This document shows, piece by piece, positions 18,249 through 63,451 of a stretch of DNA of 64,000 nucleotides (the first letter of the stretch is position 1; the number at the start of each line of letters is the position of its first letter). This DNA comes from Cystobasidium ongulense (Eukaryota > Basidiomycota > Cystobasidiomycetes > Cystobasidiales > Cystobasidiaceae). The notes beneath the pieces are model-generated. The model was given only the letters and a program-made list of their open reading frames with translations, was not told where the DNA came from and did not search any database. The stretch covers positions 434,001 to 498,000 of the forward strand of contig BQUP01000002.1 of the NCBI GenBank assembly GCA_022835595.1, read 5' to 3'. A program made the translations under genes and the position numbers.

Positions 18249-20243
18249 ATGGCCGCCAATACTGTTTACTGGCTCTTTAGTACCGGGAGCATCTCAAGCT
18301 GCTCCGGCGACCTTTCTTCGTGAGCTCCTTGTCCACAAGCTGACCGCTTGCAGGGCGATCGAAACTTGCGACAACCGCATATCTGACCTGGCTTCTACGG
18401 TTATACAGATACACCTTCTCTGCATCTGCCTGCTCCGGCAATGACATTTGTAATCTATCTCCCGTGACCGGCAACGCTGCGATCCAAGTCGGCGGGGATT
18501 TCTATGGTCCTTCTGGAGAAGCCATCTGTGATGGTCAGGTGTGTGACATGCAGAGGCTTACACCTTGCTCTGAACCCTGCTTACTTTTACTTTGCAGGAA
18601 CATGCGGCCAACCTAGCTACTTCTGCGTCTAGCGGGACTTCAGATCTCGGTACATATGCCTGTGCTGTTGGTGGCGATACTCTTGCCGTTTCAGCGCCAT
18701 GCAAGTGAGTGGCCATCGTAAATATTTATTTAAGGAACGTGTACTGATATCTCACATCCATCTCTCCTTATTGTCAGTGAGGCCCAAAGCCTCAGTATTG
18801 CTGCTGGAAGCTACACATGCGACACGCTTTTCTATCGAAGCACAAATCCCACACCATGTCTCGTAAGCTTGGCACACGTGCCTGCAGCTTAAGCATTACC
18901 TCACTGACAAACAAACTTTACAGGAAATGATAGGCTGCGATGCCAGCCTGACGAATTGTCTATCTTATCTTGGCGACCGCTACATCTGCGACAATCAAGT
19001 CCACGACAGTAGTACAGGAAATGGCGATTCAAGCTATATTTGTTCCTGCACGTCTCAAATAGTCGGCGCGCCGGCATCTGCTGGTGGCTTCACCTTTCCC
19101 GGTTCTGCACCCAGTACTGGAGGATGTGGACTCCCTCGTCTAGCGCCAGCAGGGTCATCGTCAGCATCGTTAGCATCCACATCTTCTTCCAGTACAAGTA
19201 GCATTGCAAGCACGACATCGCCAGCCAGTTCGACACCGACGACTTCGACTTCAGTGGCCATTGATACGGCGGCTGCGTCAAGTGCACTTGCCTCTATCCA
19301 GTCTAGTCTACAAGCAAGTGCAAGCTCTGTGGCATCTGCTGCTTCGGCCTCGGCGCAATCTTTACTGTCGTCGATCAGTGCAGCATCAGCAAGTTCTGCG
19401 TCGGTAGCGAGTCAGGTCTCTGAATCTTCAGCTGCAGCAGCATCGTCATCGTCACTACTCTCCGCATCGTCAGCCTCCGTGGCATCGGAACTCTCATCTG
19501 CCTCTGCCGCAGCGGCCTCTTCTGTATCTGCAGCTTCAGCATCTTCCGCCTCTCTTGCAAGCCTATCCGCAGCTTCCGTCGCTTCGTCGCTTAGCTCCCT
19601 AGCGTCTGTACTCAGTGCTTTGAGTACTACTCAAGGCTTAATCAGCTCTTCAGCTTCTTCATTATTGGCATCAACAACCGCTCTCTCTGTGACGAGCAGC
19701 ATGGTTCTATCGAGTACGATAATTCCCAGCACTGCGATTACGAGCGCATCGGTAGCCTCCTCGACTACCTCATCGAGCTCTATCACTTCTTCAAGCTCGA
19801 CATCTTCAACTCAAGATGCAGCAGATGCGGTACAGTCGGCCATCTCAGCTGCTAGCAGCTCAGCCTTCAATGCAGCCTCATCAGGTCTACAACAAGCCAG
19901 CAGTTCAGTATTCGGTCCTGGATCCGTCTTTGCTCAGAATAACGGCAATGTCGGCGGCCTATCGAGCGGGACAAAGATCGGTCTTGGCGTAGGACTAGGT
20001 GTCGGTGGAGCTGTGATTCTATCTGCAATTGCGGCTCTAATATGGTCTAGAAGACGACCGAGACATGAATACGAGACCGGACCTATGTTTGATGATGACA
20101 CCGAGGCCGCCGATACTGCTGGATTTGCCAACGAGCCAAGCACGGAAACCACGAATAACCCGTTGGGCCAGAGTGTAACGCCTAGTGACAATCTACCAGG
20201 CCCACAACAGCCTGCATATCCTACATATACAAGTCGAATATGA
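18249..20243 (+). CDS. Ser/Ala-rich single-pass membrane protein with Cys-rich ectodomain; 5' end uncertain
   Basis: Four downstream exons (18409-18538, 18598-18704, 18778-18862, 18924-20243) join in phase. A first exon 18249-18319 also fits, giving 570 residues, but its protein start lacks a clear signal peptide, so the true 5' end may differ. The ectodomain has repeated short Cys motifs (CSGNDICNL, AICDGQ, TYACAVGG, SYTCDTLF, RYICDNQ, YICSCTSQ), then about 220 residues dominated by Ser/Ala that should be heavily O-mannosylated. A single helix IGLGVGLGVGGAVILSAIAA and a stop-transfer RRRPRHEYE follow, then an acidic cytoplasmic tail. The layout resembles fungal wall-stress sensors (Wsc/Mid2 type) but I recognise no WSC domain. 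Sensor or adhesion function is inference. Confidence 0.65.
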
Positions 20244-37815: not shown

Positions 37816-39262
37816 CTACAGTCTAGGAGATACAGAAGCTCTAGGTGAAGAGGTAGATGGATTATCGCGAGGTGGAGATTCTAACTTCTCATCCTCTTCT
37901 ATCCGTCTTAAAGAAGCCGCATCTCCCCATTGGAAGAACTGCGATCCTCTCGAATCGACCCATCCACCAATCTTCCCCCGTTCAAGCCATTTTACAATTT
38001 CAATCTTCCATTTCTTGCTTATCCGCTCATAGTCCATAACGACAGGTCTGACTCTAGTCGCTTCTGTCGGATGTTCGCTCGTTTGGAGATAGATCCAGTG
38101 TTCGTGAAAGTGTCTTACGAGAAGAGCAGCGAGATGATGGAATGTCTGCTCAACGCTGGATAATGGAGACGAGAGGAAGATATAGGAAAGGGAATGAAGA
38201 GGGATCAAGCGGAGGAGAAAATCGATGATTGTGATGTAGGACAAGGCGAATGGGTACCATCCCAAGGTTTCTCCATCACCTAATACGCCTCTGATAGCTT
38301 GTTGGACTATCAGTCTACCTTCTCTGTTTTCAGCGTGTAGATCGCTAAAGTACAGCATGCCGGTGAGACCCAGTCTCCCACTAGATCGCCAGTCGGTAGA
38401 TGGATCGGCGCCTTGAAAACCAATGTCCTGCCACTGCTTGGTCGATATAGGTGATATCCCATCATCATCTTCGAACATTGTAGCTTTTTTATCGTCGTAA
38501 TGCAATGCTTTCCATAAGATCTTTAGATGACGTTGATACTGTGGATCAGAAGGTGAATGTGCTATCTTGCTTTCTGATAATACAGTAGATTGTATTGATA
38601 ATTGCAAGTCGCGCAGTTCTGCTAAGCGGACTGACAGGCGAGGTGCGAAGCGTGCTGGGATATGCTTGGTGAGGCACAAGGTGGCGGTCACATCGGAGAC
38701 TGCGTCGGATGTCGAGGTGGTTATTGTAGATGGAGTAAACAGTATCTTGCGCTCTTCCTGGATTCGACATGTCAGAGGGTCGTTCGCTTTCTCATCAGGG
38801 CGATGATTGACTCACCTGGAGGGTACGCGAGTGGCTAATGCTGTAATCTAATTGAAGGCATCAACAAAGCAAGGAATAAGCAGCATATCTGAACACAGTC
38901 TGAATGATGCACCCACCCGTCCTCCACTTTGCATATATCTCGCTCTGCCTCTCTCGCCTGCTCTGGTTACTCAGTAGTCGGATCTCGTCGTCTCCCTCAG
39001 ATCTATCTGGATCATCGTCGCCTTCTCTCTCCAAGCCATCGCTGTCATCCACCACTTCTCCTCCTGATCTAGCAAGTCGGCTCAGCTCACTTCCCTGCTG
39101 CAGCAGCACCCTCTGGAGCCATTTGAAGGCCTTGTACCACGCTGTAAGGACACGCGACTGCCCTGCAAACAGCAGGAGCGATATCGAGACGCATGGACTC
39201 CGCCAGAGCAGCGTGTAGTAGCTGACGAGTGCAGCCAGCGAGGCAGGCAAGATCGCACTCAT
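37816..39262 (-). CDS. ELMO-domain protein
   Basis: Minus-strand exon 1 from ATG at 39262 (MSAILPASLAALVSYYTLLW) contains a hydrophobic start and an acidic Asp/Glu stretch. A 24-25-nt second exon (ISHSRTLQ) follows, and the third exon, running to the stop at 37816, carries the ELMO core: DLQLSIQSTVL, HLKILWKALH, KQWQDIGFQGADPSTDWR, GRLGLTGMLYF and the helix pair SYITIIDFLLRLI. ELMO/ELMOD proteins act with small GTPases as GAPs or GEF partners; ELMOD members stimulate Arl2/Arf GTPases. The conserved W-x-D-I-G-F-Q segment is intact. The N-terminal hydrophobic region may be a membrane anchor. The protein ends in a Ser/Pro-rich tail. Confidence 0.85.
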
Positions 39263-43714: not shown

Positions 43715-45060
43715 GGGATGATGAAGAGGGAACGGAGACCTTGCAGTTGAGGAGGTGTCGCTTGTTGCTTTATCGATGGCAGTCCTATCTGCCTCGGTCC
43801 AGCTGGGCTGTATGGCTGGCTTGGTTTGGACAGCTTTGGGAAGGTAGTGAGTGGTGATGATGATATACGAATGGGAAGTCGGGACAAAGGTAGATGATGA
43901 AGGGATGGATAGAAGTAAAGATGTAGAACAAGAAGCTTTCTCTCTGTCTTGATCTTGCCTTGTCCAGTCTTCCAGTGCAAGCAAGCTATGCGCGTATAGT
44001 GGCTTCTAGGAGAGAGAAAGCTGGATCAAGCAAGCTCTTACCCAAGTCGCATTGATGGTCATTCGAGGACGAGGTGAGCAGGATCGCAAGAAAGGTCTAG
44101 CCAGTCCTGGCCGCACAGTGCTCTCACAGTGTATGTGAAATCCTCATGGCCGACTTCCTGCTCATCACTTCTGCTCGCCCTCGATCGCCCCATCATTGTC
44201 CGGATATGGAAGCTGATGATGACTTTTGCATCCGGATTCAGCAAGGTCGCGTTTCGTTCGTGACAAACACAGCGCACGCACGCACGTCGTTGGATGGGAC
44301 AGAATTGAGTTAGGCGCAGTCCATGGTGTTAATGCGTGATTACCCGATTAATGCGCGAGCTTGCTCCCATCAATTCACTGGTGATTTGGCACTTCACCAC
44401 TTGCAAAAGAGGCTGACCACCGCATCGCCGCACTGTACTTGCTTGCTCATGGAAGCCGACTCCAGACCTTGCTAGTAGTGGTGCTGCCTGTTCATCGTCT
44501 CCCACACGCTCAAGGTCGCGGCCATGTATACGGCACCATCCTGCGTGCTGTCGCTGCCCTGCAACTTGGAGACACCCTGCCCTGAGACACAGAGAGAGCG
44601 ACAGAGGGAGTGGAGAGCAACGTCTGCAGGGCAAGTCGTGCAATCCAGATGGGGTGCTCGAGAGCACTGCACTGCAGGTGGAATGGCAGCTGGACCTGGC
44701 CATACATAGCCCTGGCAGCTCTAGCAGAAGTCAAGCTGAAGTCAGGCTGGAATGTCACAAGCGCCGTCTCAGCACTGAAAGAGCTGCCTTCTACAAGACC
44801 AGGCTACTTGATGCATACACGAGCTGTTGGATGCTTGTCATAGCTGTCCTCCTTCCTGCCCCGTGCATTAGCGCTCCATCGGATCTGTCTCTACAGTCCA
44901 CACGCCTCCGCCAAGCAACGAAATGCATTATGTACCGTACACCTAAAAATGTCTCAATTCAGAGCTATCCAGTATCAAATGTGAATGGTCAATCATTGCT
45001 TCCACTGCCTGTCAAGATAGTGTATCTCAGACGGGCAACCATTACGGCTTCTCAAACCTC
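43715..45060. other. Gene-poor left edge of the accessory island
   Basis: 1.35 kb without a gene I can support. Open frames on both strands are short. One begins ATGGGGTGC on the plus strand at 44649, but its continuation looks random. The first 300 bp are the promoter and leader of the PC-esterase-like gene. Confidence 0.4.
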
Positions 45061-45458
45061 CTACGCACCAATATCATCTGCAGTGTCATTGTTGTTGGCA
45101 CCACCAGATCTATCATTCTGAGCGCCCGCGAAGAAGCGACTATGAGGGAATACATCATCCGCTGCAGCTGTACGTTTATATCTCTTCTGCTGGTGCGCTT
45201 CCCACTCGTTGTCGGTGAAGCCAGAGAGCTGCCGTACCGTAACACGTGTAAAGCGGGTACATTAGCTGACTAGATACTCTCTTGCGATGCCACAGAAAAC
45301 TCACAGCGGGAGGCATTCCCCTTCGATCCTTCTTCGGCCCTTCCTATACAAGACGATAATCCGTTGTTAGCGGCAGTCGTTGTTACGCCCCATTCTATTC
45401 TGGCGGACTGCTCAGGCGGGATGCTCACCCAAGTCAACTTCGCACACGCACATCCCAT
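45061..45458 (-). CDS. Small MGC-start protein 1 (78 aa), predicted lipid-anchored
   Basis: Three minus-strand exons, 45429-45458, 45305-45343 and 45061-45228, join in phase (introns with GTGAGC and GTGAGT donors and TATAG/GGCAG acceptors). The product starts MGCACAKLTW, continues EGPKKDRRGMPPA and LSGFTDNEWEAHQQKRYKR, and ends in a Gly/Asn/Asp-rich tail (GGANNNDTADDIGA). Gly2 with Cys3 and Cys5 is a plausible myristoylation/palmitoylation start, though position 6 is Ala rather than the preferred Ser/Thr. The central FTDNEWEAHQQKRYK block looks like a folded or conserved segment. No family is recognised. Each single exon is too short to be seen as an open frame. Confidence 0.55.
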
Positions 45459-46068
45459 ACTGATGGTCAAATGGGTGTTGATCAGAACTTTACGAAAACA
45501 TTGCTAAACAAACCAAGGCTCATCAAACGCACGCCACCACAGGCTGTGTGTCACGCTTTGGTTCGGGTCACTTTCCCAAGTTAGCGTCTGAAGCATTCGT
45601 ACCGCAAAGCTCGTGGACTACATGTCTTGAGCGTATCAATGCAGCCCTAGTAAACCCGCTGATACACACAAGGGGGTTACTTATTCCTACAAGGAGGAGA
45701 GGAAGCGACAACAATCTTGTAATGGTTTCATTAGGCTGGATGAAAGTTTACGTGAAGAGATCAACATCGGAAATGGCTTCAATGGTTTCGTATTCACATG
45801 CGCTAGATACAATTAAGGCTACATTACTCTACTATTTGGAGGGATAATCTATTTACTTGGGGGCGACAGTCTGACTTCACGTACCTTCAGGATGCACAGG
45901 AAGGTCAAGGGGGAATCGGCTTTTGGGTGGACAACTAAAGATTTGACGTGTTGCGTTGAGAGTCTCTTATTTCTTCAGTAGCTTCCTTGGTACAGTAAGA
46001 AAAGAAAAACGTCAGCTGGGAACGGCCGTATTCTGGGTTGATTACCCATCTCAAAACACGAAGAAAGA
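45459..46068. other. Spacer within the accessory island
   Basis: 610 bp between two small minus-strand genes. A plus-strand open frame at 45548-45847 has no splice support or recognisable character. I see no other gene. Confidence 0.35.
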
Positions 46069-46393
46069 CTAACAGTGCCCACTAGAGCTACTTGCTGTGC
46101 TATCAGTAACGCTGTACTCGCCAAAAGCAATACTACTACCACTCTGGCCATTATGGTTACTCGAATAATGGCTAGTACCTGCATTTGATGCCGTGTATGA
46201 TGGCAGAGGTACGGCTAGATGGTAAGAAGAGCCTTGGTAGGCTGGAGCTGGATTGGGAGTGGTTAATCCGACTTCGGTTGGAACACTGTGATTTGACGCT
46301 GTTGGTGGGTGGAAAGTAGATTGGCTGACCACTACTTTGTGAAGATCCATATGCAAGCTCTTCTCTCTCTTCCGTTGACATGCAGCACCCCAT
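46069..46393 (-). CDS. Small MGC-start protein 2, predicted lipid-anchored; exon model tentative
   Basis: The minus strand reads MGCCMSTEEREELAYGSSQ from ATG at 46393. Gly2, Cys3, Cys4 and Ser6 form a strong consensus for N-myristoylation plus S-acylation, and the start closely resembles fungal G-protein alpha subunits (MGCGMSTE). The rest is not a G-alpha. The favoured model splices after CAA A (donor GTAGTG, weak; intron 37 nt, short for this genome) into a Ser/Pro/Thr-rich frame (SNHSVPTEVGLTTPNPAP) ending SSSSGHC at 46069. Without splicing the frame gives 73 residues. The N-terminus is the firm part; the body is uncertain. Confidence 0.4.
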
Positions 46394-46844
46394 TCGGTAT
46401 CAAAATAATCAGTTATTCCGGGTCACTGGAGCAGTATGGCAATCAACAGGGTATAGAAACAGTGGGAAGAGAAAAGGCGGATGACTGCCTATATCCCGTC
46501 TGTCTCTCCTTTCAGTGCAATTTGATGGCGTATCAAGTCAGTACTTGTTTCTTCATTCTACTTGACGGCATAGCATTACTGACGGACATTTCAGACTAAA
46601 TAGACCTAAATAGCAATCTTCACCGCCGACACCGTCGCCTTTGTCGAGTATGCAAATCGGTCGTAGCGACTGACAAGGCGCCTAATGCGATGAATCTTGT
46701 GCAAAGCGTCCGCTTACATGATTGTCATTGTTACCTGACTTTGCAGACTAGATACAAATGCTTACGAGAAGGATGCTGGGTGCAGACAGATCAGCCGCCC
46801 AGACTTGCACGAGTGGACCTTCCTGCATACGTTCCAAGCATAGA
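46394..46844. other. Spacer with possible decayed copy of the duplicated small gene
   Basis: 451 bp. Around 46648-46668 the minus strand shows CGATTTGCATACTC, resembling the first exon of the neighbouring small genes (GGCTTGCATACCTAG) but without its ATG. CTTTGCAGACTAGATAC at 46737-46753 resembles the spacer segment near 47696. This suggests an eroded third unit of the tandem duplication; the similarity is short. Confidence 0.3.
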
Positions 46845-47536
46845 CTAGCAGGTGAATCCCCCTCCCCCTCCAAAGCTGCAATCTCCCCCGGAACTGAAGC
46901 CACCTCCGCTTCCAAATCCTCCCCCGGAACTGAAGCCACCTTCGCTTCCAAATCCACTACTATTTCCTCCTCCGCTTCCGCCACCTGTATTTCCTACTTT
47001 AACTGATCAGGATGCAGCAACGTATCAGATTGGCATGCTACTGTTTGCAGAAGGCGCGCAGGGTACTTACATCCACCTCCGCCGCTGAAGAACGCCCCAT
47101 CCCATCCACCGCTAGTGTAACCTTTACCGCCTGAGTGTCCAACTATTCCAGGCCTTGTCCCCATGAACGCATCGTACTCCGCACTCAATCCACTCGATTT
47201 ACCGCTACTGCCACTTTTGCCGCCTGAGTGTCCAACTATTCCAGGCCTTGTCCCCAAGCACGCATCGTACTCTGCACTAAATCCACTCGATTTACCGCTA
47301 CTGCCACTTTTGCCGCCTGAGTGTCCAACTACTCCACGCTTTGCACGTCGAAATGCCTGTCTTACCAGTAAGTCAGGCAGCACACATATTTTGAACAAGA
47401 GAGACATCAATGAATCTACTTTGGATTCGCGGTTACTGCTTTTGGACTAGAGAGCCGTACAATGACTCATCAGCACCCTGGGCCTTGCAGCGGAGCCCTG
47501 ACATAATGCCCTCACTCTGCTAGGTATGCAAGCCAT
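46845..47536 (-). CDS. Small Gly-rich protein A (148 aa), duplicate pair member with MAC start
   Basis: Minus-strand exons 47516-47536, 47071-47356 and 46845-46984 join in phase to 148 residues. It starts MACIPSR, continues AFRRAKRGVVGHSGGKSGSS, then two 31-residue repeats (each with SAEYDA and GTRPGIVGHSGGK), and ends in a Gly/Ser/Phe-rich tail (GGGSGGGNSSGFGSEGG to GGGGGFTC). Introns have donors GTGAGG and GTAAGT. Its neighbour B shares exon structure, intron sequence and upstream sequence. The MGC start of B is MAC here: GCT replaces GGT at codon 2, removing the glycine needed for myristoylation. No family is recognised. The terminal Cys and Gly-rich body suggest structural or surface association, which is inference. 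Confidence 0.5.
47127..47340 (-). repeat. 93-bp tandem repeat inside small protein A
   Basis: The segment beginning CCGCCTGAGTGTCCAACTA recurs at 47127, 47220 and 47313, a period of exactly 93 bp (31 codons). The first two units are nearly identical; the third matches for about 28 bp before diverging. The period preserves the reading frame. Confidence 0.85.
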
Positions 47537-47890
47537 CGTATCTGTGAAGTTCTCAGTAGTATATGAGCGGCAATGAAGCTATGGGGACTTGTTTTAAGCG
47601 AAAAGGAAGCAAGGCGACTCAGCTCGATAGCCTTCCCTGAGCGTGAAGGTCAGAGAATGGACTTGTCATCCTGACGGGACAGTCATTGCTGACGGAATTG
47701 CAGACTAACAAGACGTTATTACAAAAGAGAGGATCTGGAGGGGTCTGTCTCTTTGAGCTGGAGCAAGATGAAACTCGCTTCAAATTATAGAAGGATGTCC
47801 GCACGCTTTTCTAATTGAGGAAAGGCCCCTCGGGTGGACTTTCCTGCATGCACCCGAAGGCGCTTTTCCTACAGACATTATAAGCAAAGG
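47537..47890. promoter_or_regulatory. Promoter of small gene A
   Basis: 354 bp between A and B. The first 80 bp upstream of A match the equivalent region upstream of B, implying a copied core promoter. Nothing else is seen. Confidence 0.4.
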
Positions 47891-48314
47891 CTAGCAGCTG
47901 CTAACCCCTCCCCCTCCATCTCCTCCCGAACTGCAACCACCTCCATCTCCGGAGTTGAAGCCACTCCCATTGCCTCCGCTATCTAATGAGATGTAACAAC
48001 GTATCAGCTTGGCATCTGCCATTCGTAGACATCTTGCAGGACACGTACATCCACTTGCACTGTAGACAAAGGCCCTATTACCCCGTTTGCTGCGCCTGGT
48101 AGCCTTGCCTCCGTGTTTGCCCGCTCTACGCTTCTGTATTATCAGAAGTTCAGTCAGCATACATAAATCCAGGCAAGAGAGACGTTGGTGCATCTACGTT
48201 TGATCTCCCGTTTCTGTTATTGTGCTTAAAAGGCAGTAGAACACGTCATCAGGACCCATTGTCTTGCTAGGAAGCCTTGATATTATGTCTCACTTTACTA
48301 GGTCTGCAACCCAT
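47891..48314 (-). CDS. Small Gly-rich protein B (65 aa), MGC start, predicted lipid-anchored
   Basis: Minus-strand exons 48294-48314, 48049-48133 and 47891-47982 join in phase (donors GTGAGA and GTACGT, acceptors ATACAG and ATTAG). The product starts MGCRPSK, which has Gly2, Cys3, Ser6 and Lys7, an almost ideal N-myristoylation signal with a palmitoylatable Cys. Then come a strongly basic stretch (KRRAGKHGGKATRRSKRG), NRAFVYSASG, and a Gly/Ser-rich tail with Cys residues ending GVSSC. Basic residues next to a myristoyl group are a classical plasma-membrane binding combination. It is the shorter partner of protein A and lacks A's 31-residue repeats. No known family is recognised. Confidence 0.5.
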
Positions 48315-48887
48315 CGTATGTGCAAATTCTTGTTGTATGCGAGCGGCAGTGGAGCTATGAAGACTTGTATCGAGTTAACAGGAAGCAAGAGTGAACAGGT
48401 TCAAATATCCGAGCCGAAGGATTGCTTTTGGTCTGATGGAACAACACCGCCACTAGACTGTACTACCGCACAGCCTGGTTTGGGGCAGTACCAAGTCTAC
48501 AGACTGCGCTTTCTCCGTCCGAAGGATGGTAGCGGTCGCGAGTATAGCTGCAGGTCAGCCGCGACACTACACCTGTGTCGTCATTGCCTTTGCCAAAAAT
48601 TGGATGTCAAAGCTGTCTACTACGCGGTCCACGGCCACATACATATCGAATTTCTAGCGCGCGAAACAACAACAATGAACAAGTATAAATTAGCATTTGT
48701 CCCCAATCGTTTCTCCCTTCCCATACCATACTGTACAATAAGTTAATTTCCATCCCTACTGGAACCTAGTTCTGCATGCTTTCCTTCGCTTTACGATGTG
48801 GCGCTTTCCTTCTCCTCGGTCATATCGGTTCGGCCATCGCGTCGTACCCGTACACGCACGTGCCAAATAAACGACGCTCTGTCCGTT
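48315..48887. other. Spacer in the accessory island
   Basis: 573 bp. The first 90 bp are the copied promoter of gene B. A plus-strand frame (48264-48746, about 160 residues) overlaps that promoter and has no recognisable character, so I do not call it. Confidence 0.35.
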
Positions 48888-49278
48888 CTACAATGCGCGA
48901 CCAGGTTGGAGGAGCTGTTGTCGAGGGTCCGAGGTGTAGGTGACCTGTAATGCAGGTGATGATTCGATTCCATTGCTGCTGCTGCTCCTGGTGCCGATGC
49001 TCTTCTCGCCTGTGAATGCTTGACTGTTCGTGGAAGCGGTGAGGCGTCCTGTGCCTGTATCGATAGTGGACGCGTCCGAGGGGGGAAGACCGCAGAGCCA
49101 TCCTACGAAGCTATCGCCTGTCACGAGTCCTGGCTTCTGTCGAGTCTGTGTGGATTCGACTGGTAAAGGCTCGGGGAACTGCGGTTCAAGACTACGATTA
49201 GCCTAGGAGGTGCGGTACCCAATTGCAGAGTACTGAGTGGAAGGTACTAACAAAAGCTCTGCTAGGATTACAACCCAT
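48888..49278 (-). CDS. Small MGC-start protein C (113 aa), predicted lipid-anchored
   Basis: Minus-strand exon 1 (49252-49278) encodes MGCNPSRAF. A 49-nt intron (donor GTTAGT, acceptor CCTAG) joins in phase to exon 2 (48888-49202): ANRSLEPQFPEPLPVESTQ, TRQKPGLVTGDSFVGWLCGLP, a Ser/Thr-rich stretch and the end RQQLLQPGRAL. Gly2, Cys3 and Ser6 satisfy the myristoylation consensus. The start MGCNPSRAF resembles protein A (MACIPSR then AFRR) and B (MGCRPSK), suggesting common ancestry of the first exon, while the rest differs. The intron lacks an obvious branch site, so the model is moderate. Function unknown. Confidence 0.45.
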
Positions 49279-50050: not shown

Positions 50051-52357
50051 ATGAGGGTCAGCTCCTGCATGCTGCCCTAAGCTGATGTGCCCTGGCTGAT
50101 GTAGTCCTGCTGCAGGTCGCGGTCGAAGGTTGCTGCCATGGAGAGCTGGATGATGTGGGTAGTCCACAATGCAAGGGGGATCTTGGTACAGCGTAGAATG
50201 GTAGCTGATGTGCATGCTGTCTGCAGATCTACTCCACCATCAAGCAAGCACAAGAAGCGGACGGCAAGAAAGTCGACCTGTTGTTGATTTGTGGTGATTT
50301 TCAGGTGAGACGCGATTCAAGCCTTGATGACAGCAGGAGCTGAAGTTAAACGCTCTTCAGGCCATTCGCAATTATTCAGACTTGCAGTCGCTAGCAGTAC
50401 CCGACAAGTACCGCCGGTTGGGCGGTTTCTACAAGTCAGTCCTTCTGCTTGAAGAAAGTCACGGGCGAAGCTGATCGTTCACCTCAAAAGATACTACTCT
50501 GGCGAAGCTGTTGCACCACTACTCACTATAGTCATTGGAGGCAATCATGAAGCAAGTAATTACATGTGGGAGCTGTAAGTCTCTTCCCCCTTGCGTCCAC
50601 TGGCGAGAAGCAATCCTGACGGTTGTAATCTTCCCAATCTACAGATTCCATGGCGGATGGTGAGTCGCTTGCTTACTTGCAATGACAGGTCACTCAATTC
50701 ATCCATATTCCTCTGAACAGGCTCGCACCTAATATCTACTACCTCGGAGCTGCCGGATCTGTCCTCGTCAATGGATTGCGAATTTCAGGAGCGAGCGGCA
50801 TCTATAAGAGTGGCGACTACAGACGAGGTAAGCCAGCAGTGCCGTCTCATGCGCCATGGTGACACTTGCACAGTTGCTGACACATTAGTGGTATCCGTGA
50901 AGGTCGATTCGAGAAACATCCATACGACAGATCGTCCATTCGAAGTATCTATCACACCAGGGAATATGATATTTCAAGACTAGCACAACTTGCAGCACTC
51001 TCAGCATTCCCAAGTATCTTCCTCTCGCACGATTGGCCATTAGAGATTGAGCAATACGGTGATACAGCCGCTCTCATTCGACGCAAACCTTTCTTCAAGG
51101 AGGAGGTATGTTGAGATGCCTTCGCTTGCATCTTCCGGCCCTTGTTACCGTAGGATACAGGCTGAATTGCTGCTAATCTTTTAGATTGCTTCCAATACTC
51201 TCGGATCTCCACCTTTACGCGGCTTGTTGGAAGTGCTCAAACCTCGATATTGGTTCGCTGCACATCTGCATGTTAAGTTTGCAGCTCTCTTCAAGCACAG
51301 CGGAGAACGTACGAAAGTACAACGGCACGTGTCGCATAATCAAAACAACACATCGCAGGTTGCACAGGCAGCAAACCCAGACGAACTTGTTATAGACGAC
51401 GAGGAAGGAGCAGAAGACACAGAGACCAAAGAGAACAAAGAAAGTCTCCCACATCATCTCGATGCAGAGGCGCTCATCCATCCAGAAGTTCCGGCTCCTG
51501 GTACTGCAGATACGATGGCAGATCCGAATGCACCAGACGAATCGGTAGACGTAAAGGTCAACGGAGTAGAAGCTGCGAACCCGGACGAAATTGCAATGGA
51601 TGATGACGATGAGGACGAGGATCCTCCACATACTGCGCCCGACGACAATCCCTCCAATCACCAACATGCGCATGGAGTCGAGCTTAACCCTCAGGCAATC
51701 AGTTCTGAAACTACCACTTTGCAGGAGCCAGCGACTGTGACAAGTGGAAAAGAAGCATTCAATACCGAAGCTAGTGCTACCCGTTTCTTGGCTTTGAGTA
51801 AATGCTTAGCTGGACAGGATTTCCTACAGGTATGTATGAAATTGCACTGTGTTCATACACCTGGTTGATGGTTTGATTGATTGCGATAATAGATCTTCGA
51901 CGTCGATACACCACACCATGACGAGACCCCCAATATGACGTTCGATCCAATCTGGCTAGCCATCACACGCGCTTTCCACAACAAACTATCTTTGGCGTAT
52001 CAACAATCTTCCCTTCCTACAGAAAGTACCATATGCAAAGCCTTGATCGAGAAAGAACTGCAATGGCTCAAGACCAATGTGCCATCTGGAGGTCATGTGC
52101 TCATCAACGATGTCCAGCAATTCCACCAGACCGCACCTTATCCAGGTCAATTGGGAGGAGACGAGCGTGGACCAGGTGAGTGGCAGCAACGAAAATCCTA
52201 GACGAATCTTGTCGAATATCTGATACCTTCTGCAGGTTCATGGTACACTAATCCTCAGACAGAAAAGTTGTGCCAGTTCTTGGGTCTTGAAAACAAGATC
52301 AATCCTATTCCGCCCGAGCTACGGGCGCAAATGTCTTCCACTGCCCCTTTGCCCTAG
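50051..52357 (+). CDS. DBR1: Lariat debranching enzyme
   Basis: The gene starts with a 6-nt coding exon, ATG AGG at 50051-50056, then GTCAGC. The next exon continues [13 protein letters not shown], the DBR1 metal-site start. Further blocks are [92 protein letters not shown] and [14 protein letters not shown]. Together they give the Cys, His, Asp and Asn ligands of this metallophosphoesterase. A C-terminal DBR1 domain follows ([29 protein letters not shown]). Between them is an acidic disordered insert (about 51360-51770). Dbr1 cleaves the 2'-5' bond of intron lariats in the nucleus. The exon for FHGGW is only 15 nt (50645-50659). The stop overlaps that of NAA35. Confidence 0.95.
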
Positions 52358-55256: not shown

Positions 55257-56102
55257 TTACCTCCTCGAACTTCGCTTCCACTGGCTTAGCGGTGGCATGC
55301 CAAAGGGATCTGGCGGAGGTTCTTTCTCATCCTCCTCAGTTCCGCTTTCTGTACTACTTTCTTGTTCCTTTATGTGTCTCTCATCTGCTCCCTCTTTCAC
55401 ACTATCCCCATAAATCACAGAATCGTCATTTGGCATTCGCTGCAGAGCTTGACTAGCTGCAATTAGACCAGCCATCACCTCTTCGTCGTCATCCGTATCT
55501 GACTCGTCTGTTTGACTGAGCGGCGGCAGATCAAATGCAGAAATAGGCTCTTCTGATAGTTCATGTCGAGAAGATCCTGCAGGAGCTTTGTGTGGCGAGT
55601 CTTCATTGACGGCATCCACACTTTCCAGCTTCACTCGCTTTCCAGACTGTTCTGATGCAGCAAGACTGCTTGTCTTGGCATCTACACTTCATTGAATCAG
55701 TCCACATCTTGACTGACCAGGTCCGAGTGTTTACAGATGCTCACCTCGCTTTTGAGACCGAGGTACCTCGACTATAGGTATCATCTGCGATCTTCTTGGA
55801 CTAGAAGCTGTCTTTATAGATTCTTCGAGAGGGATGTTGCGGAAGAGCAGCGTTGTGGGAGAAGCTTCACTGCTGTTTCTGACGAGGTTGCCGTCATATT
55901 CGCAGCCATTGAGTCTACAGCCGCCGGTAAAACACTCGACGCGTTCAAATCTTTGATAGCCGTCGAGGTCTTCCACACACTGCGGCCAGCGGTGGAATGA
56001 GTGACCGCAACTGACGCTCGTCAGGATGGCTTGGCCAGACTGGAAAACTTTCTTGCAATTGTCACAGGCTGGAGGTTTCATGCGTCCAGCGTTTGCCATC
56101 AT
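55257..56102 (-). CDS. RING-like zinc-binding protein with acidic C-terminal region
   Basis: Two minus-strand exons from ATG at 56102 (MMANAGRMKPPACDNCKKVF) join in phase after QKR via a GTGAGC donor. The N-terminus carries a cysteine/histidine array: ACDNCKK, then SCGHSFHRWPQC, then ECFTGGCRLNGCEY. The C-x2-C, CGH-x2-H and later Cys pairs suggest a variant RING or treble-clef zinc fold. The rest is Ser/Asp/Glu-rich and disordered, with a possible nuclear signal (SGKRVKLE), an acidic run (DESDTDDDEEVMAGL) and a tail PFGMPPLSQWKRSSRR. A ubiquitin-ligase role is possible but the spacing is not a textbook RING. It diverges from the giant gene with 285 bp between starts. Confidence 0.65.
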
Positions 56103-56387
56103 GCCCGCCCACTTGTCTTCCTGGTGGAGATTCGGGTAGAATGCAGCTCGACTGTGTTACCGCGGTTCAGAAAGCAGCATGGTCTTGCACGAATGATTAT
56201 GAAAGGTGTCTACGTCATGATAGGCTGCTTGGGTGTCTGTTCTTCCGATTGTTACAGACCCAACCTGCTTGCATTGTTTTTGTTGGATCGTCTCTTTCGT
56301 TCAACTCACACACAATCGAAAAGACGAAATCGGCATAGAGAGCCTGCAGCCGCCAGAGGGAGACGGAGCAGCTTCTTGCGGCCAGGC

Positions 56388-59300
56388 ATGGCAACCTCCA
56401 GCAAGGCTCGCCAGAAAGCGAGCTCGTCGCACAGCACGGCGTCTCCCAGAACCGCACGTCGTGCGCGGAGCACTAGTCATGCACTTCTTGAGAAGGATAG
56501 CCGATACAATACGGGCAAGAGCAAGACCGACCGCTATGTCAGTTCTAGCAGCAAGAAGACATCAAAGCACGGCAATGCTCGTACTGGCAGGAATCGCAAG
56601 AATGACGAGAGCGATGATGCGGAGAGCACCCCAGACGAGGATTCAGATCATATAGAGCGAAAGAGGCGAAGTCAGCTCAAGAAACAGAAAGCACAGCTAA
56701 GAGCACAAAGTCCCGATGAAGATCTCTATCAGTCGTCTTCGTCTGATTCCGGCTCAAGCAGCGATTCCGTTCAGGTCGTTATCGCATCCAAGGTGCGTGT
56801 AAACAGTTAGGTGTATGACGACAATCGATACCTTGTCGAATATTAACGATGCTCGTGTTCCTCTAGCGTCAATCAATAACTAAAACGTTGAAAAGCCGTG
56901 CCGCACCTGCTGATACCAAGCGTGGACGCCCCTCACCCGTCAAGCCTACTGCTAACAAGCCAAGAACCAAACCTTCAGCTGTATCGAAGCGATCTGTTAC
57001 TGGGCCCAGTCGCCTAGGAAGTGGCAGCGTATCTCCTCCACCTTTACGTGTGGTGGCCCCAGGCTCAGGCTCCCGTCCGAAAGCACGGCCTTCTGCTTCT
57101 CAAAAGCTGGTATCCCCTGAGATCCGCCCACGTTCGAAACAGAGAGACTCACCACCTGCACCCCAAAGATCTTCACAAAGTACTGCTAAGGTATCTAGCC
57201 GCGAGGAGGAGCGACCTCGAGGACGCCCTGCACTTCAGCCACAACCCAAGCGTACTAAAGCCAATGTGCTGCATACTGAGAGTGACAGTTCGGATGCTGC
57301 ACTAGAGCATTTCGTACCCCCGAAGAAGCTTGCAATCCCTGCTTCAAGCCCTGCTCGCTCGAATGGCCTGGTCAACAAACGTAAAGCATCCTCACCAAGC
57401 GACACGGACAGCTCTGGTGCAGGTGTTCCACCTCCGCCGAAACGAACAGTGTCAGACAGGCCGGTAAATCAGGGACGGCCAGGGCCATCTCTTCAACAAA
57501 GCAAGAGACGGGCGCCGACTCCGACAGATTCTTCAAGCGATGCTGCTGAAACCCCGCCTATTCGAAAACCGATCCTTCAATCGCGCCTTGAGGTCCCCGC
57601 AAGACCACGAGCTGTGCCAGCAGTATTCTCAGTTAAACGAGTACCCTCTCCGTCCGATTCTGACACCGAAAGCGATGTTCAGAGTGTTGCAAAGCCTGTT
57701 GCAGTGGCTCGGGAGACGATCGTTGTTAAAGAGCGGATTCGCACCGTAGATAAGCAGAGCACAAAATACGTGGAGCAGAGGAGGCTTTCCAACCCGCCGC
57801 GACCAGTCATAGAGATTCCGAAAGCTGGCAAAAAGCGTACCGCCGCGCATCCATCGTATTCTCCTGCCCTAGTTGATGCATCACTATCACCGCCAGCGAA
57901 AGCGCACGTCTTAGCTCCCTCGAAGTCGCAAACAGAACCGATTCGACCGAAGCCCGTGGTGAACAGACAAGCTGAAGGGGATTACGATCTAGACTTACAG
58001 TCAGCCCTCTCAGACGTACAAGCAGAACGGATACGGCCAAAGCCTGTAGTGCACAGAAGAGTCGAAGCTGAACTGGATTTCTTAGAAGTTACTCAAAGGG
58101 AAAGCCGTTCACCATCAGAGCCTCCGGAATCTTATGTTGGCACCTCCGCCCAGATCTACATCGAGCAGAGAAACGCCCGCCAGACAATCCATCACGCCTC
58201 CCCGTCTTCGTCGGAGCCAAGGCTTTTGGCGGAAGAACCTCGACGCGTTATATCTTCAGAAGAGACCGACATGCCCAAAGAACTTTCTCAAGGCGAACGA
58301 TCTGTTAGACAGCTGTCTCCCAAACGCTCACCACTCGAGATCAAGCGACGTACGCCCTCCCTTATGGGAAGCGACGATGATAAAATTCAAGATGATCCGG
58401 AACCTGCCCAAAGAGCACCTTCGCTCAGAGCTCGCAAATCTACTGCTATAACACGCCAGCAACCGTACAGCCGCGAGCTTGAAATTGGGTCGCGGAATGA
58501 GGCAATTTTGGGGCAGGACACACGCATTCCGGACGACAAGTACGGCAAGAAGCCCTTCCCGCGTCTCAGTCGCTCGTCTTCGGACGAGGACGATAGCGCC
58601 GAAGAGGAGACAGCAATCGCAGCAGTTTTGGCAGCATCAAAGAGAGGGCAAATCCCTGAGCGGAATCACAAGCAGATGGACAGACGCGAAGAGCCTTTGG
58701 AGCACTTCGTGCCAGAGGAGTCTCCGCCCGTCAATGAGGGACCTTTGGAACAAGATTTGTCAATCTTTGAGGCTCGAGAGGTCGAAGAAAGCCCTCTTTT
58801 GCCGCAAGAAGAGGACTATGCTGCAGCGGAAGTTGAGTCTGTACAGGAAGATATACCTGTGCCAGCTTCTGCTAGCTGGAGCCATTCGGTGAGCCAATCA
58901 GATACACGATGGAATTATATCCAGCTGACCACTTGTGCAGAAATCTCCTCGACCACACCGCGAAGACGAACCTCGGTTCACCGCCACCTCCCGTATTATA
59001 TCCCAACCAACCAGATCTAAGAAGGTGCGCCGGGAAGAGCGCTATGTGGCGGATATCCCAGTACCATACGATGCCGAGGGTCACCAATCCAATGACTCCG
59101 GGGAAGAAAGATACAGCGATGCAAATTCCGGCCCAGGGTCGCCACCGTTGCAAGTGAAGCAAGAACCAATTTCCCTTTCCAAGAGAGCCCGAAAGGTCAC
59201 TGGAGGTATTTATGCTGCCAGTCGCCAATCTGCTGTCAGCAGCCAGCCTGTCGCGCGCCGGGCTACCATACCCCGGAAGTCTATCAAGGGTGAGGAGATT

Positions 59301-62300
59301 ACGGAGGAGTCAGCGAGCGAAAGTGACACCTTTGGCGACAACGGAGCTATCGTATCGGATAGTACTGCAAACTCAGGACATTCGGATGCAAACGATCATC
59401 GACGCACTTCAATGACGGTGAAGCCCCGTGCGCGCGAATCGAAGACAGCTGCCAATCTTGATCCAGATTTTGTGGAAAGCGTAATGTCACGAAAGAGGCG
59501 CAATGCTTCAGGATCTAAGGCCGAGTCCGTGACAAGACCATCAGTAGACCGGCGCTCGAGCCCAGTCGCTCTAAACACCAACAAACCTACGAGACCTTCT
59601 AAATCCGCAGGGAGAAGCAGCAATACCAGACCGCTGTTCGAGACTGGGTACGCACCGCGCCGGAAAAGCTTGACTGAGCGTTTCTCAGGCGAAGATACCG
59701 ACAGCAGCGATAATGTGGAAGTCATGAAGAGTTCGACCCTGGAAGGAGGACAAAGTGCGGATGCTGTATTGAGAGCAATGTCACGAGAAAGCCGACAGAA
59801 AAGTGAACAATCGGATACCAGGGCCCAGTCTAGAAAAGGGAAAGGCCGTGAAGTCTACGAGGAAGAGCCGTCAGATAGAGAAGATGTACAGGTAATTGCG
59901 CAGGATCGTCCGGAATCTGACGACTCATTGCCGCCGCCGCCCTTGGGACGCTATGACTCCTCGAGAGGTAACAGAACAGCCTTTGCCTCTCAGAATCAGG
60001 GGCATAGCAATGGAATACAACAGGATTATGAGGACATGTCACAAGACATACTGGCTGCTTTCGATGAACCCAATGCCTTCTCTCCCCCGCCAGTCACCCA
60101 TGGCGGACATTCAGATTTCTTCGCGGCAGATGTCGGTTCGGATGCTAAAGAAAACGGTGACGAAGGCGACCGGCGTGTACGCACGGCTACAACTTCCTAC
60201 CGCGGTTCATCGTTTCATCCTCTGCAGCCGGCCCAGCCAGTCGAAGATACGTTTGCTGCAGTCCAAATCGAGCCTGCAGGAGAAATTGAAACAACTGCCG
60301 CCATTCCTGAAGGCGACGCGCCTATTCTTAGGCAACCTTATTTTGCTTCGCAATTTGGTAGTCTACCGCGAGAAGTCCTGGAAGCGGTACATAGCGCATC
60401 CTCTTCGGATTCCCATCAACCAGCTAGCAATTCAAGCAAACGAAGGACAGGCCCGACGCCCGCCAATGGTAAGCGTCGTCAACGAGAATTGTACGCTGAA
60501 GATGTCGAGGACGATGAAGTTGTTGTCCGAGATTCCGCTTTCGTCAGAGATCCTCATGGCCGAATGATGCGAAAGGAGGAAATGCTAAGAATGCTCGCCG
60601 AGCACGAGACAAGTTCGAAGGGCAAAGGGAAAGCAAGAGCGTCCTCACTGGAAGATGCAGAGGGTAGCCTAGTAGATGAAGCGGAGTTGGCAGCCCACGA
60701 AGCTCTTGCCGAGGAGGAGCGAATGCACGCTTCAGCAAGCCAATCGTTCGATTTCGACACGAGCCTTGGGCTCGAATCAGTCCGATACGATGATAAGGCC
60801 GACGATGATCAAGACTTTGATATCTCTATAGCGAGATTCGAAGTACAAGTCGAAGAGATACTCGAGGAAGATGATATGATGCAAGGCGGAAGCTCGGCAC
60901 TCGAGATAATTGAAGGCATCGTGGAAGAGTACGAAGAAAACTTCTGGGAAGATGAGGTAGAGTTGTTCGTTGTCGAGCAGCTACTACATCGTCATCACCG
61001 AAGGAAGTCTACAAGGCTCAGCACTACACGAGCTCAGGCTGAAGAGCAAATCCTTTCACCAGCAAGAGGGGCCCAGACTCATGCGTCAAGCCTTCCATCC
61101 GACCCCGTCGAGCCAGAGATTGTCCCAACTCCTGGTGAAAGCCTGGTGCATAATCGCAGTGGCATTCATCATGCGAAGATCCCAGACGCGGTTACATCAG
61201 GCTCGACCAGAGCTCTGACGCCTCCCTCGGAGCTTTCAGCAACGACGGGACGCGCGAGTCCAGACTTAGCGATTTCAACTCCACATAGAGCCATTCCTCG
61301 CGGCAGCCCTTCGAAAGTATCTCCTACCAAGCATCGAAAAGCTGAGAGTGCTTACAGATCAGCCAGCGTGCACTCTCGAGCAGAAGGTATTTTGAAGTCG
61401 GCTGAAAGTGGTGATGGCAAGTCGAATAGTCAAGATGAGCCTGTCATTGTTCCATCTGCGCAGACCCGCAGGAAGGAAACCACAGCGCAACAGCAGAAAG
61501 ACACTCCAGATGGCTCTCTGCTCTCATCGGCCAGTCACGGCATCACTCGCGAAGGCCCGGCACAGGAAAAGACACCGCAAGAAGAATTCAACCCTGGTAG
61601 TGTCCGCAGTGAGCGTGCGGTCACTCCCCAACAGCCGTCTGCTCCAACGGCTAGTCAGACGCCGAACAGTGAGCATGGCCGCAACAAAAGGCAAAACAAT
61701 GTCTACGTCGAGATCCAGTCGCCTCAAAAAGCCTCACCGGCGCGCAAGGCCCGCGATCAGAGTAGTATCATTGCGAGTGCACCTGTGCTACTGGATTCGA
61801 CGAGCAAAAATTCTGAAATCGGGGATGCTCATATTCAGGAGGAGCAGAGTGAGACTCGGGAGTTCGATCAGCATGTAGCTATGCCTGCAGCATTAGACGG
61901 CAACGAGGCTGGACTACCAGACAGTCCATTGGCGCGTCGTCGCGGATCATCGTATGTCGAAGAAATAAATGCCATGGTGGAAGAAGAGCTTGCAGAAATA
62001 GCAGAGGCTTTGAGTGACCCGGAGATTGCGGCATCGAAGCAAAGCCTGCCTAACGTCACACCGAACTCTGCAACAGCTTCAATGGATGTTAACATGGCTA
62101 CCGAGAACGAAGACGGCTTCCTTACGACTACCACGCAAGCATTGGGGGAGGCAGTCGCTGGTTCGACACCTGCAGAAGCTCGGGGTGAAGAGATACTCGA
62201 AATAGTCACAACTACTACATTGGAAGTGACGGAAATTTCAACACAGCAAACCGTGGAAGAAACGCAACCAGTTGAGTCAACTGGAGCGCAGGTGCTTCCT

Positions 62301-63451
62301 GTAAAGACCACAGTCGCGTCATCATCTTCGTCAGATTCAGATGCGCCATCGGAACATGGTGTACGCGCTTCTTCTGCTCAAGCTGCAGTGGCGGAGCCCC
62401 TAGTAGAACGCAATGCGTCTACGAGCGCGGCAGAATCCTCTTCATCTAGCTCCGAGAGTACTGGGTCCGCTGACACGGAATCGAGTGAGGAAAGCGATGA
62501 CGCGGAAGGCGAAGTCTTCGTCGAGGACCCTGAAAAGCCTTTCAGCCTCACCGATTTGCTATCTTGGGCAGATAATCTGAAGGGTGAGCTATACTTGACC
62601 TTGCGATGGTGACAGCTTACTGAGGCGGTATCTGCATACAGACGAAGAGAGGCCACATCTCATCACGAGCTTAGGCGCGAAGAAATTGTTCGAACAGATG
62701 AAACTCAGCACAGACGGTGTATGTACCTCTCTTCTGTTGACAGGTTGGGATTTGGCTGATTACTGCGACTACTGCAAAATAGGCTTTGCCTCTTCTGCTG
62801 GCTTGGAAGCTTGAGAGCCGTACTAAGGCAGAATGCGTAAAGGTCGATTTTGTTAGCCTCTTACGCGAGAACGAGTAGGTAGCATTCGCCCGCCAGACTG
62901 CTTCTTCTTCGCTAACGGTTGTGCCTTTCAGAATTGACTCGCCGACAAAGTTAGCCACATACTTGACAGCTCTACAGACGACAACGCTAGCTATATCTTC
63001 ACACCTGCGATTCCCCTCTACATCGGGAGATGACACGGACAGCCAACCCGTGCGGACGTGGCGGATTCCGGAAGCGTATCGCTCTTTCTATGATTTCAGT
63101 TTTGATTATGCTCGTGAGACTATAGAATCAGAAAGCATAACACAAGATCAAGCCCGTAACCTCTGGTGGATAATCCTTGCACCATGTTTGAGTCGAGGAC
63201 AAGATATTGTGGACTTACTGGACAGCGGTGTTTGGAAGGGAGACATCACCAGAGAGGGGTGGCAAGGACTTCTTGACGCATGCGCCTCGGGAGATCGTCT
63301 GCTATCGAAGCATCATAGTGGAGATATTGCAAGTGGGCAAGACCTCGTTGCATCCTTTCGAACATGGTTGATGTGCAAAAAGGATAACTCTGCTGTGGCC
63401 GAGAATGGCGAAGAAGTGGTCCCTGCGACACAACCGTCAGCAGAAGCATAA
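56388..63451 (+). CDS. Very large (2252 aa) mostly disordered protein with a folded C-terminal domain
   Basis: Six exons (56388-56792, 56867-58888, 58941-62583, 62642-62718, 62783-62874, 62932-63451) join in phase to 2252 residues. The first roughly 2000 are low-complexity, rich in Ser, Pro, Glu, Arg and Lys, with repeated acidic phospho-type patches (SPSDSDTESD, SDSSDAALEHF), two copies of LEHFVP and a local duplication around 57940-58060 (IRPKPVV twice). Basic clusters (RSKKVRREER, SKRRTGP) suggest nuclear localisation. The last 250 residues look folded: LTDLLSWADNLKDEERPHL, GAKKLFEQMKLSTDG, ALPLLLAWKLESR, SPTKLATYLTALQTTTLA, WRIPEAYRSFYDFSFDYA. I recognise no family. A chromatin or DNA-repair scaffold is a guess from composition only. 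Confidence 0.75.

Follow-up and report, generated by a model that had tools for sequence, protein, structure and literature searches.

Five predicted small spliced genes on one strand

The present study concerns a window of 64,000 nucleotides (nt) from the basidiomycete Cystobasidium ongulense (assembly GCA_022835595.1; contig BQUP01000002.1, hereafter C2, positions 434001-498000), in which five in-frame spliced gene models lie on the minus strand between positions 49278 and 45061, in the order C, A, B, D and E (Table 1). The predicted N-termini are MGCNPSR (C), MGCRPSK (A), MACIPSR (B), MGCCMST (D) and MGCACAK (E). The genome searched comprises 19,773,046 bases (19.8 Mb) in 19 contigs. On balance, we favor the view that the small genes clustered in this stretch are real and code for proteins, four of which (those of A, C, D and E) would be tethered to membranes by an N-terminal lipid anchor, drawing on the open spliced frames, the paralogy of A and B, the match between first exons and the relatives of D and E. 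In other words, the small genes are probably real and would carry a known type of anchor, two of them having relatives, two being tandem paralogues and one sharing the anchor exon only. The original prediction had described five phase-consistent models on this strand, and rebuilding them in frame recovered all five starts and the same outer bounds; its statement that the signal mostly sits on a first exon of 21-30 nt holds for four of the five genes (A, B, C and E), the first exon of D measuring 58 nt. Thus, the observation itself was confirmed, and the interpretation placed on it was supported in part.

The predicted products comprise 105 (C), 65 (A), 148 (B), 78 (D) and 78 (E) amino acids (aa); B consists of MACIPSR followed by 31-aa repeats and a Gly-rich body, and A of MGCRPSK followed by a basic and Gly-rich body. 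The eight introns measure 160 and 66 nt in A, 159 and 86 nt in B, 73 nt in C, 88 nt in D, and 85 and 76 nt in E. The donors are GTGAGA and GTACGT in A, GTGAGG and GTAAGT in B, GTTAGT in C, GTAGTG in D, and GTGAGC and GTGAGT in E, six of the eight conforming to GTRNG, and a YTRAY branch-like site lies close to the 3' end of every intron. The acceptor of B exon 3 (intron 2) was set by alignment with A, a second acceptor being possible, and the intron of D (46335-46248) was preferred among several possible ones. The acceptors of C (105 aa) and D (78 aa) were picked for their branch-like sites, replacing models of 113 and 95 aa, respectively; the protein search and Pfam scan of C were run on the 113-aa model, and the protein search of D on the 95-aa model.

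Table 1. Exons of the five predicted genes, with the single intron of gene C, in window coordinates
Feature	Position	Strand	Description
Gene C exon 1	49252..49278	-	27 nt, MGCNPSRAF
Gene C exon 2	48888..49178	-	Ser/Thr/Pro-rich body, runs to stop
Gene C intron	49251-49179	-	73 nt, GTTAGT...CCGCAG, CTAAT branch-like site
Gene A exon 1	48294..48314	-	21 nt, MGCRPSK
Gene A exon 2	48049..48133	-	basic
Gene A exon 3	47891..47982	-	Gly-rich, C-terminal end VSSC*
Gene B exon 1	47516..47536	-	21 nt, MACIPSR; Ala in place of Gly2
Gene B exon 2	47071..47356	-	93-nt (31-aa) tandem repeat, absent in A
Gene B exon 3	46845..46984	-	Gly-rich, C-terminal end GFTC*
Gene D exon 1	46336..46393	-	58 nt, MGCCMSTEEREELAYGSSQ; MGCCMSTE identical in P0007
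Gene D exon 2	46069..46247	-	Ser-rich body, end ...SSNHNGQSGSSIAFGEYSVTDSTASSSSGHC*; tail conserved in P0007
Gene E exon 1	45429..45458	-	30 nt, MGCACAKLTW
Gene E exon 2	45305..45343	-	39 nt (13 aa), EGPKKDRRGMPPA
Gene E exon 3	45061..45228	-	55 aa, LSGFTDNEWEAHQQKRYKR...DDIGA*; two relatives

Relationships among the five genes

First, the alignments identify A and B as tandem paralogues. In the window DNA, including a blastn comparison of 40-56 kb, the two genes can be aligned over about 75 nt of upstream DNA, the exons, both introns and a little downstream DNA. Identity amounts to 70% over the upstream 86 nt, 81% in exon 1, 65% in exon 2, 76% in exon 3 and 67% in both introns, and falls to 38% further upstream; the exon limits behind these identities, and behind the codon-position figures given below, lie a few bases off the final models. 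All six gaps in the exons (15, 3, 183, 27, 12 and 9 nt) are multiples of three, compared with one of ten elsewhere, the 15-nt gap sitting at the edge of exon 2 and bearing the script label of intron, and the exons in this respect resemble protein-coding sequence. B differs from A in the Ala at position 2 and in a tandem repeat of 93 nt (31 aa) present only in B (47097-47375); of its three copies, two are 85% and 60% similar to the one taken as reference. Genome searches with the body of A and with that of B returned only their own loci and no second copy; because the A search missed B and the B search missed A, distant copies can escape such searches. The duplication, which the original prediction had not itself identified, bears out the local expansion that it proposed.

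Second, gene C probably shares homology with A and B in exon 1, the bodies being unrelated. Compared in register, the first 21 bases of C exon 1 have 17 positions in common with B exon 1 and 16 with A exon 1. Over about 280 nt around the starts, B and C likewise align best at exon 1, again in register, a result equalled by 12 of 500 shuffles. On both strands of the window, A exon 1 is matched best by B (17 of 21 bases) and then by C (16 of 21), every other site falling below 15; for B exon 1 the best matches are A and C (17 each), followed by one site at 16 and two at 15. The pattern ATGGSTTGYANNCCTAGYARR has three exact sites in the genome, namely C, A and B, and four more with two mismatches, the reversed control having five within two mismatches; as the pattern was derived from the three copies, its uniqueness is partly built in. 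A second pattern, ATGGGNTGYNNNCCNWSNARR, has two genome sites, A and C (control zero), and the pattern extended by a GTGAG donor, with up to three mismatches, matches A and B only, C thus lacking that donor. A reusable acylation exon had been proposed, and its re-use in C is probable in view of the in-register match with B and of an exact pattern occurring nowhere else in the genome. More tentatively, a tiny M(G/A)C-x-PS-(R/K) acylation exon may have undergone duplication inside the locus and then become attached to the unrelated body of C, such that orphan proteins might be born membrane-anchored, a scenario that we regard as possible but doubtful.

In A, B, C and E the first intron is in phase 0, which would let exon 1 of C splice into exon 2 of A, and exon 1 of A into exon 2 of B, and some of the MGC exons might accordingly be alternative first exons of fewer transcription units. 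This is hardly credible, however, as an account of a locus in which every start has its own nearby downstream exon and stop, and in which the A/B duplication took in the whole gene together with some 75 nt upstream.

Third, D and E have relatives elsewhere. Protein database searches (5.8 billion proteins) covered E, C and D. The relative of D, P0007 (121 aa, from another public contig; E-value 2.8e-4), starts with MGCCMSTE, carries AGTSSYSSNHNGQSGSSLSFGSYSVTD near its end where D has AGTSHYSSNHNGQSGSSIAFGEYSVTD, and has the tail SSNHNGQSGSS in common with D; the second match, P0006, is the frame of the window itself. P0007 consists of a single open frame, so that the intron would be either read through or absent. 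For E exon 3, two proteins encoded on other contigs were matched, P0004 being 71% identical over 79% of the query (1.6e-18) and P0005 59% identical over 69% (3.6e-12). Both diverge upstream of this exon, and in both a Gln immediately precedes it, which fits a CAG acceptor read through. Genome searches with the C body, the E body and P0007 returned only their own loci, with no further copies, and a comparison of P0004 with viral contigs yielded four pattern stretches, none confirmed. The profile of E exon 3 had no match in the PDB at E <= 10, and the structure predicted from the three sequences has a mean predicted local distance difference test score (pLDDT) of 59.6 and a predicted template modeling score (pTM) of 0.25, with a low-confidence helix at residues 6-23. 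In Pfam at E <= 1, A, B, C, E and P0007 matched no family above the cut-off, the only match of P0007 being Pneumo_att_G (E 0.098), below it. The original prediction had looked to related sequences for a conserved MGC start, and this was observed for D in P0007, but for E the relatives extend over the last exon only, and C has no relative.

The predicted C-termini of A (47891), B (46845) and D (46069) all end in Cys (VSSC, GFTC and SGHC). Because P0007 has no C-terminal Cys, these shared ends may be due to chance.

Taken as a whole, these comparisons indicate that the five genes are not one family, A and B being related, C linked to them through exon 1 only, and D and E without detectable similarity to the rest. 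The local alignments of A-D, B-D, C-D, A-E, C-E and D-E do not stand out from shuffled sequence, 93 to 491 of 500 shuffles doing equally well; these are six of the seven possible pairs involving D or E (all but B-E). The blastn comparison of 40-56 kb returned A/B and repeat matches only, leaving D and E without detectable DNA similarity to the others. Similarity does not run through all bodies, as A and B alone align and C shares exon 1 alone; among the tblastn matches listed for body similarity, C and E are not covered. A family link through the resemblance of HNGQSGSS in D to HSGGKSGSS in B was considered but abandoned, the best BLASTP match of the B body with P0007 having an E of 0.11. Descent of all five from one ancestral acylated gene, with bodies diverged beyond recognition, is improbable: the shared strand, adjacency, like architecture, MGC starts and the by-eye resemblance of D to B would fit it, whereas the non-significant match between the B body and P0007, the D and E alignments no better than shuffles in the pairs run and the restriction of blastn matches to A/B and the repeat speak against it. 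The single small-protein family of the original prediction was thus not borne out, given D and E without similarity to the others and B without Gly2.

Predicted acylation and the case for real genes

Gly2 is present in four of the five products (A, C, D and E), and the MGCxxS motif is complete in A, C and D, the three of five for which a full motif had been predicted; E has Cys3 but Ala6, and B, with both Cys3 and Ser6 in place, lacks Gly2. According to PMC8494787, MGCxxS is a published motif for myristoylation plus S-acylation, and the Gly2, Cys3 and Ser6 of A, C and D resemble those of dual-acylated proteins such as plant CBL4/SOS3 (PMC8494787). Herein, we propose that in A, C, D and E Met1 would be removed and Gly2 would be N-myristoylated by N-myristoyltransferase, followed by S-acylation at Cys3 by DHHC enzymes, possibly also at Cys4 in D and Cys5 in E. 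The lipid anchor would then keep the short, hydrophilic and probably disordered bodies at the cytoplasmic face of the membrane. A transmembrane-helix-like stretch was not found in the five products (highest 19-residue Kyte-Doolittle mean 0.65, in C), and with no strongly hydrophobic stretch the lipid would be the sole membrane tie. The genome has an N-myristoyltransferase gene, matched by PF01233 at C2:1185970-1186554 (E 5.6e-39 and 1.8e-23; none of 14 control genomes) in two pieces that each run through a single stop codon, which is taken for an intron. The cluster would have grown through the tandem duplication of A and B, the gain of the 93-nt repeat in B and the replacement of Gly2 by Ala in B; the anchor exon would have been copied or kept in C on an unrelated body, and D and E would be independent genes, with relatives elsewhere, that use the same kind of anchor. 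Acylation, location and function, like each step from the motif to the membrane, are predictions from the N-terminal residues.

The clustering alone is suggestive and not decisive, and the main support for the cluster is the paralogy and the relatives rather than the clustering. The number of ATGGGNTGY sites in the window is ordinary (five, compared with 3.37 expected; 25 of 100 shuffles had at least five), and their placing is less ordinary, four of the five lying on the same strand inside 3.8 kb. A fixed rule was applied under which the first exon must measure 18-60 nt and the spliced product no fewer than 60 aa. On the minus strand 45 of 1115 ATGs pass, on the plus strand 26 of 1014, and in three Markov sequences 45 of 3354; all four minus-strand MGC starts pass, as does B, and the lone plus-strand MGC start (44649) fails. 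An earlier sampled trial gave 17 of 300 for the minus strand, 5 of 300 for the plus strand, and 2 and 9 of 300 for Markov sequences. In the whole genome, ATGGGNTGYNNNNNNWSN, which denotes MGCxx followed by an S/T-like residue, has 328 sites, compared with 139 for the reversed pattern, and by arithmetic from site density about 0.1 same-strand triple within 2.9 kb would be expected by chance. As regards the original claim that chance clustering is unlikely, the placing and the splicing are less ordinary than the motif count. The possibility that the models over-read chance ATGs and splice-like signals in non-coding DNA could draw on this count, on the derivation of every model from the DNA letters, on the non-GTRNG donors of C and D and on the five further ATGs in the stretch that yield spliced models; we consider it very improbable, and it is disfavored for D and E by their relatives, and 1.3-4.0% of ATGs on whole strands and in shuffled DNA give comparable models.

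Several observations weigh against five real, anchored genes. First, transcripts and splicing are deduced from genomic sequence, and the donors of D (GTAGTG, weak) and C (GTTAGT) are not GTRNG. The fixed rule was devised after the models had been seen and admits these two donors by name; with GTRNG donors only, two of the four MGC starts (A and E) and B pass (42 of 1115 overall), and at 45.0-49.4 kb the wider rule passes 10 of 76 ATGs, five of which are not cluster starts. Second, the exon identity of A and B (65-81%) is close to that of the introns (67%), and their differences at codon positions 1, 2 and 3 number 13, 21 and 23 of 67 sites, which suggests no strong purifying selection and thus argues against a conserved role for the pair; Gly-rich repeats, moreover, favor gaps in multiples of three in any case. 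N-myristoyltransferase requires Gly2, so that B, with Ala2, should not be an ordinary substrate. Third, the exon 1 alignment of A and C, although in register, lacks significance, 133 of 500 shuffles doing as well, the protein search with the 113-aa model of C at E <= 1 found no homologue (five candidates, none passing), and the genome search found no second copy of the C body. For E, the support from P0004 and P0005 extends to exon 3 and the exon boundary and does not reach the MGC exon.

Some of these points would suit a situation in which function is confined to D and E, the other three genes are in decay or spurious, and coincidence together with one duplication accounts for the MGC clustering. 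The nearly equal divergence of exons and introns in A and B, the missing Gly2 of B, the lack of a homologue for C and the approximately 0.1 same-strand triple expected genome-wide are all in keeping with it. We nevertheless consider it rather unlikely, because the frames of A and B remain open through six exon gaps that are all multiples of three, splice signals are retained in both genes and C exon 1 matches B in register. The reading of five real small genes is preferred here.

Known systems and the surroundings of the cluster

The N-termini of Src-family proteins and G-alpha subunits are further examples of dual acylation. Known MGCxxS proteins bear folded signaling domains; unlike these, the bodies of A, B, C and E are short and without a Pfam match at E <= 1. 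The start of D, MGCCMSTEER, resembles the G-alpha start, MGCxxSxEER/K, but D, with 78 aa, is too short for a GTPase domain, and P0007 does not keep EER. Residues 1-24 of D matched no chain in the PDB at E <= 10, and G-alpha is absent from the 10 families tallied over the 45 frames scanned with Pfam (of 78 listed at 36-57 kb), which include the open frame of D (46072-46422).

The nearest known arrangement found is that of the Leishmania HASP locus, as an analogy of arrangement. HASP genes are not known to contain introns. As described in two reports, the HASP/SHERP (LmcDNA16) locus holds clustered small hydrophilic proteins with N-terminal dual acylation and variable repeats, and HASPB has a frame very like that of HASPA, save for an added repeat region (PMC2946902, PMC3015063). 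In the same manner, B would correspond to an A-like gene with a repeat region, the comparison being one of described arrangements and not of sequences. The present cluster differs in belonging to another group of organisms and in the position of the candidate palmitoylated Cys, which is 3 here and is predicted at 5 in the related oHASP proteins. Among the papers listed for small myristoylated or MGC proteins, fungal and general, none matched the cluster, from which no absence from print is claimed. Tiny spliced genes readily escape annotation when a first exon of 21-30 nt bears the sole informative signal. If the products are acylated, the locus would supply small membrane-tethered proteins not described before and would illustrate compactly the way in which new genes gain a cellular address, through duplication of an anchor exon, gain of a repeat and a copy (B) without Gly2.

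Regarding the wider context, Lon, Ada3 and PAF67 domains were matched in the window (Pfam scan, seven frames), Mak10, DBR1, UbiA, ELMO and leucine-rich repeats were matched in the scan at 36-57 kb, and eIF3 subunit L was recognized by PDB comparison. In the Lon gene, used as a comparison set for introns, three of the four junctions tried gave introns of 61, 52 and 63 nt with GTAAG donors and CAG ends, the third having a 45-nt alternative, and the fourth gave none. The Pfam matches, eIF3 subunit L and the short GTAAG...CAG introns of Lon are together consistent with a eukaryote.

The neighbors of the cluster include an ELMO/CED-12 frame (37819-38811) and a DBR1 frame (51224-51865), one of two frames matching DBR1; window positions 36000-57000 also hold Mak10 (a subunit of the NatC N-terminal acetyltransferase), UbiA and leucine-rich repeats, in frames not named in the Pfam tally. 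Two plus-strand open frames, 44417-45121 (234 codons) and 48240-48746 (168 codons), overlap portions of E and A, respectively, in antisense orientation and fell within the 45 frames scanned, for which the tally names no frames. Three long open frames of 269, 710 and 1225 codons lie on the plus strand at 56001-62612 and matched no Pfam family (E 1 for the first, E 0.001 for the other two), the 710-codon frame being rich in Ser, Pro and Arg. Also on the plus strand, positions 18927-20243 encode a Ser/Ala-rich protein of 438 aa that has no Pfam match at E 0.001 and in which a hydrophobic stretch is followed by a basic run, by eye resembling a single-pass cell-surface sensor.

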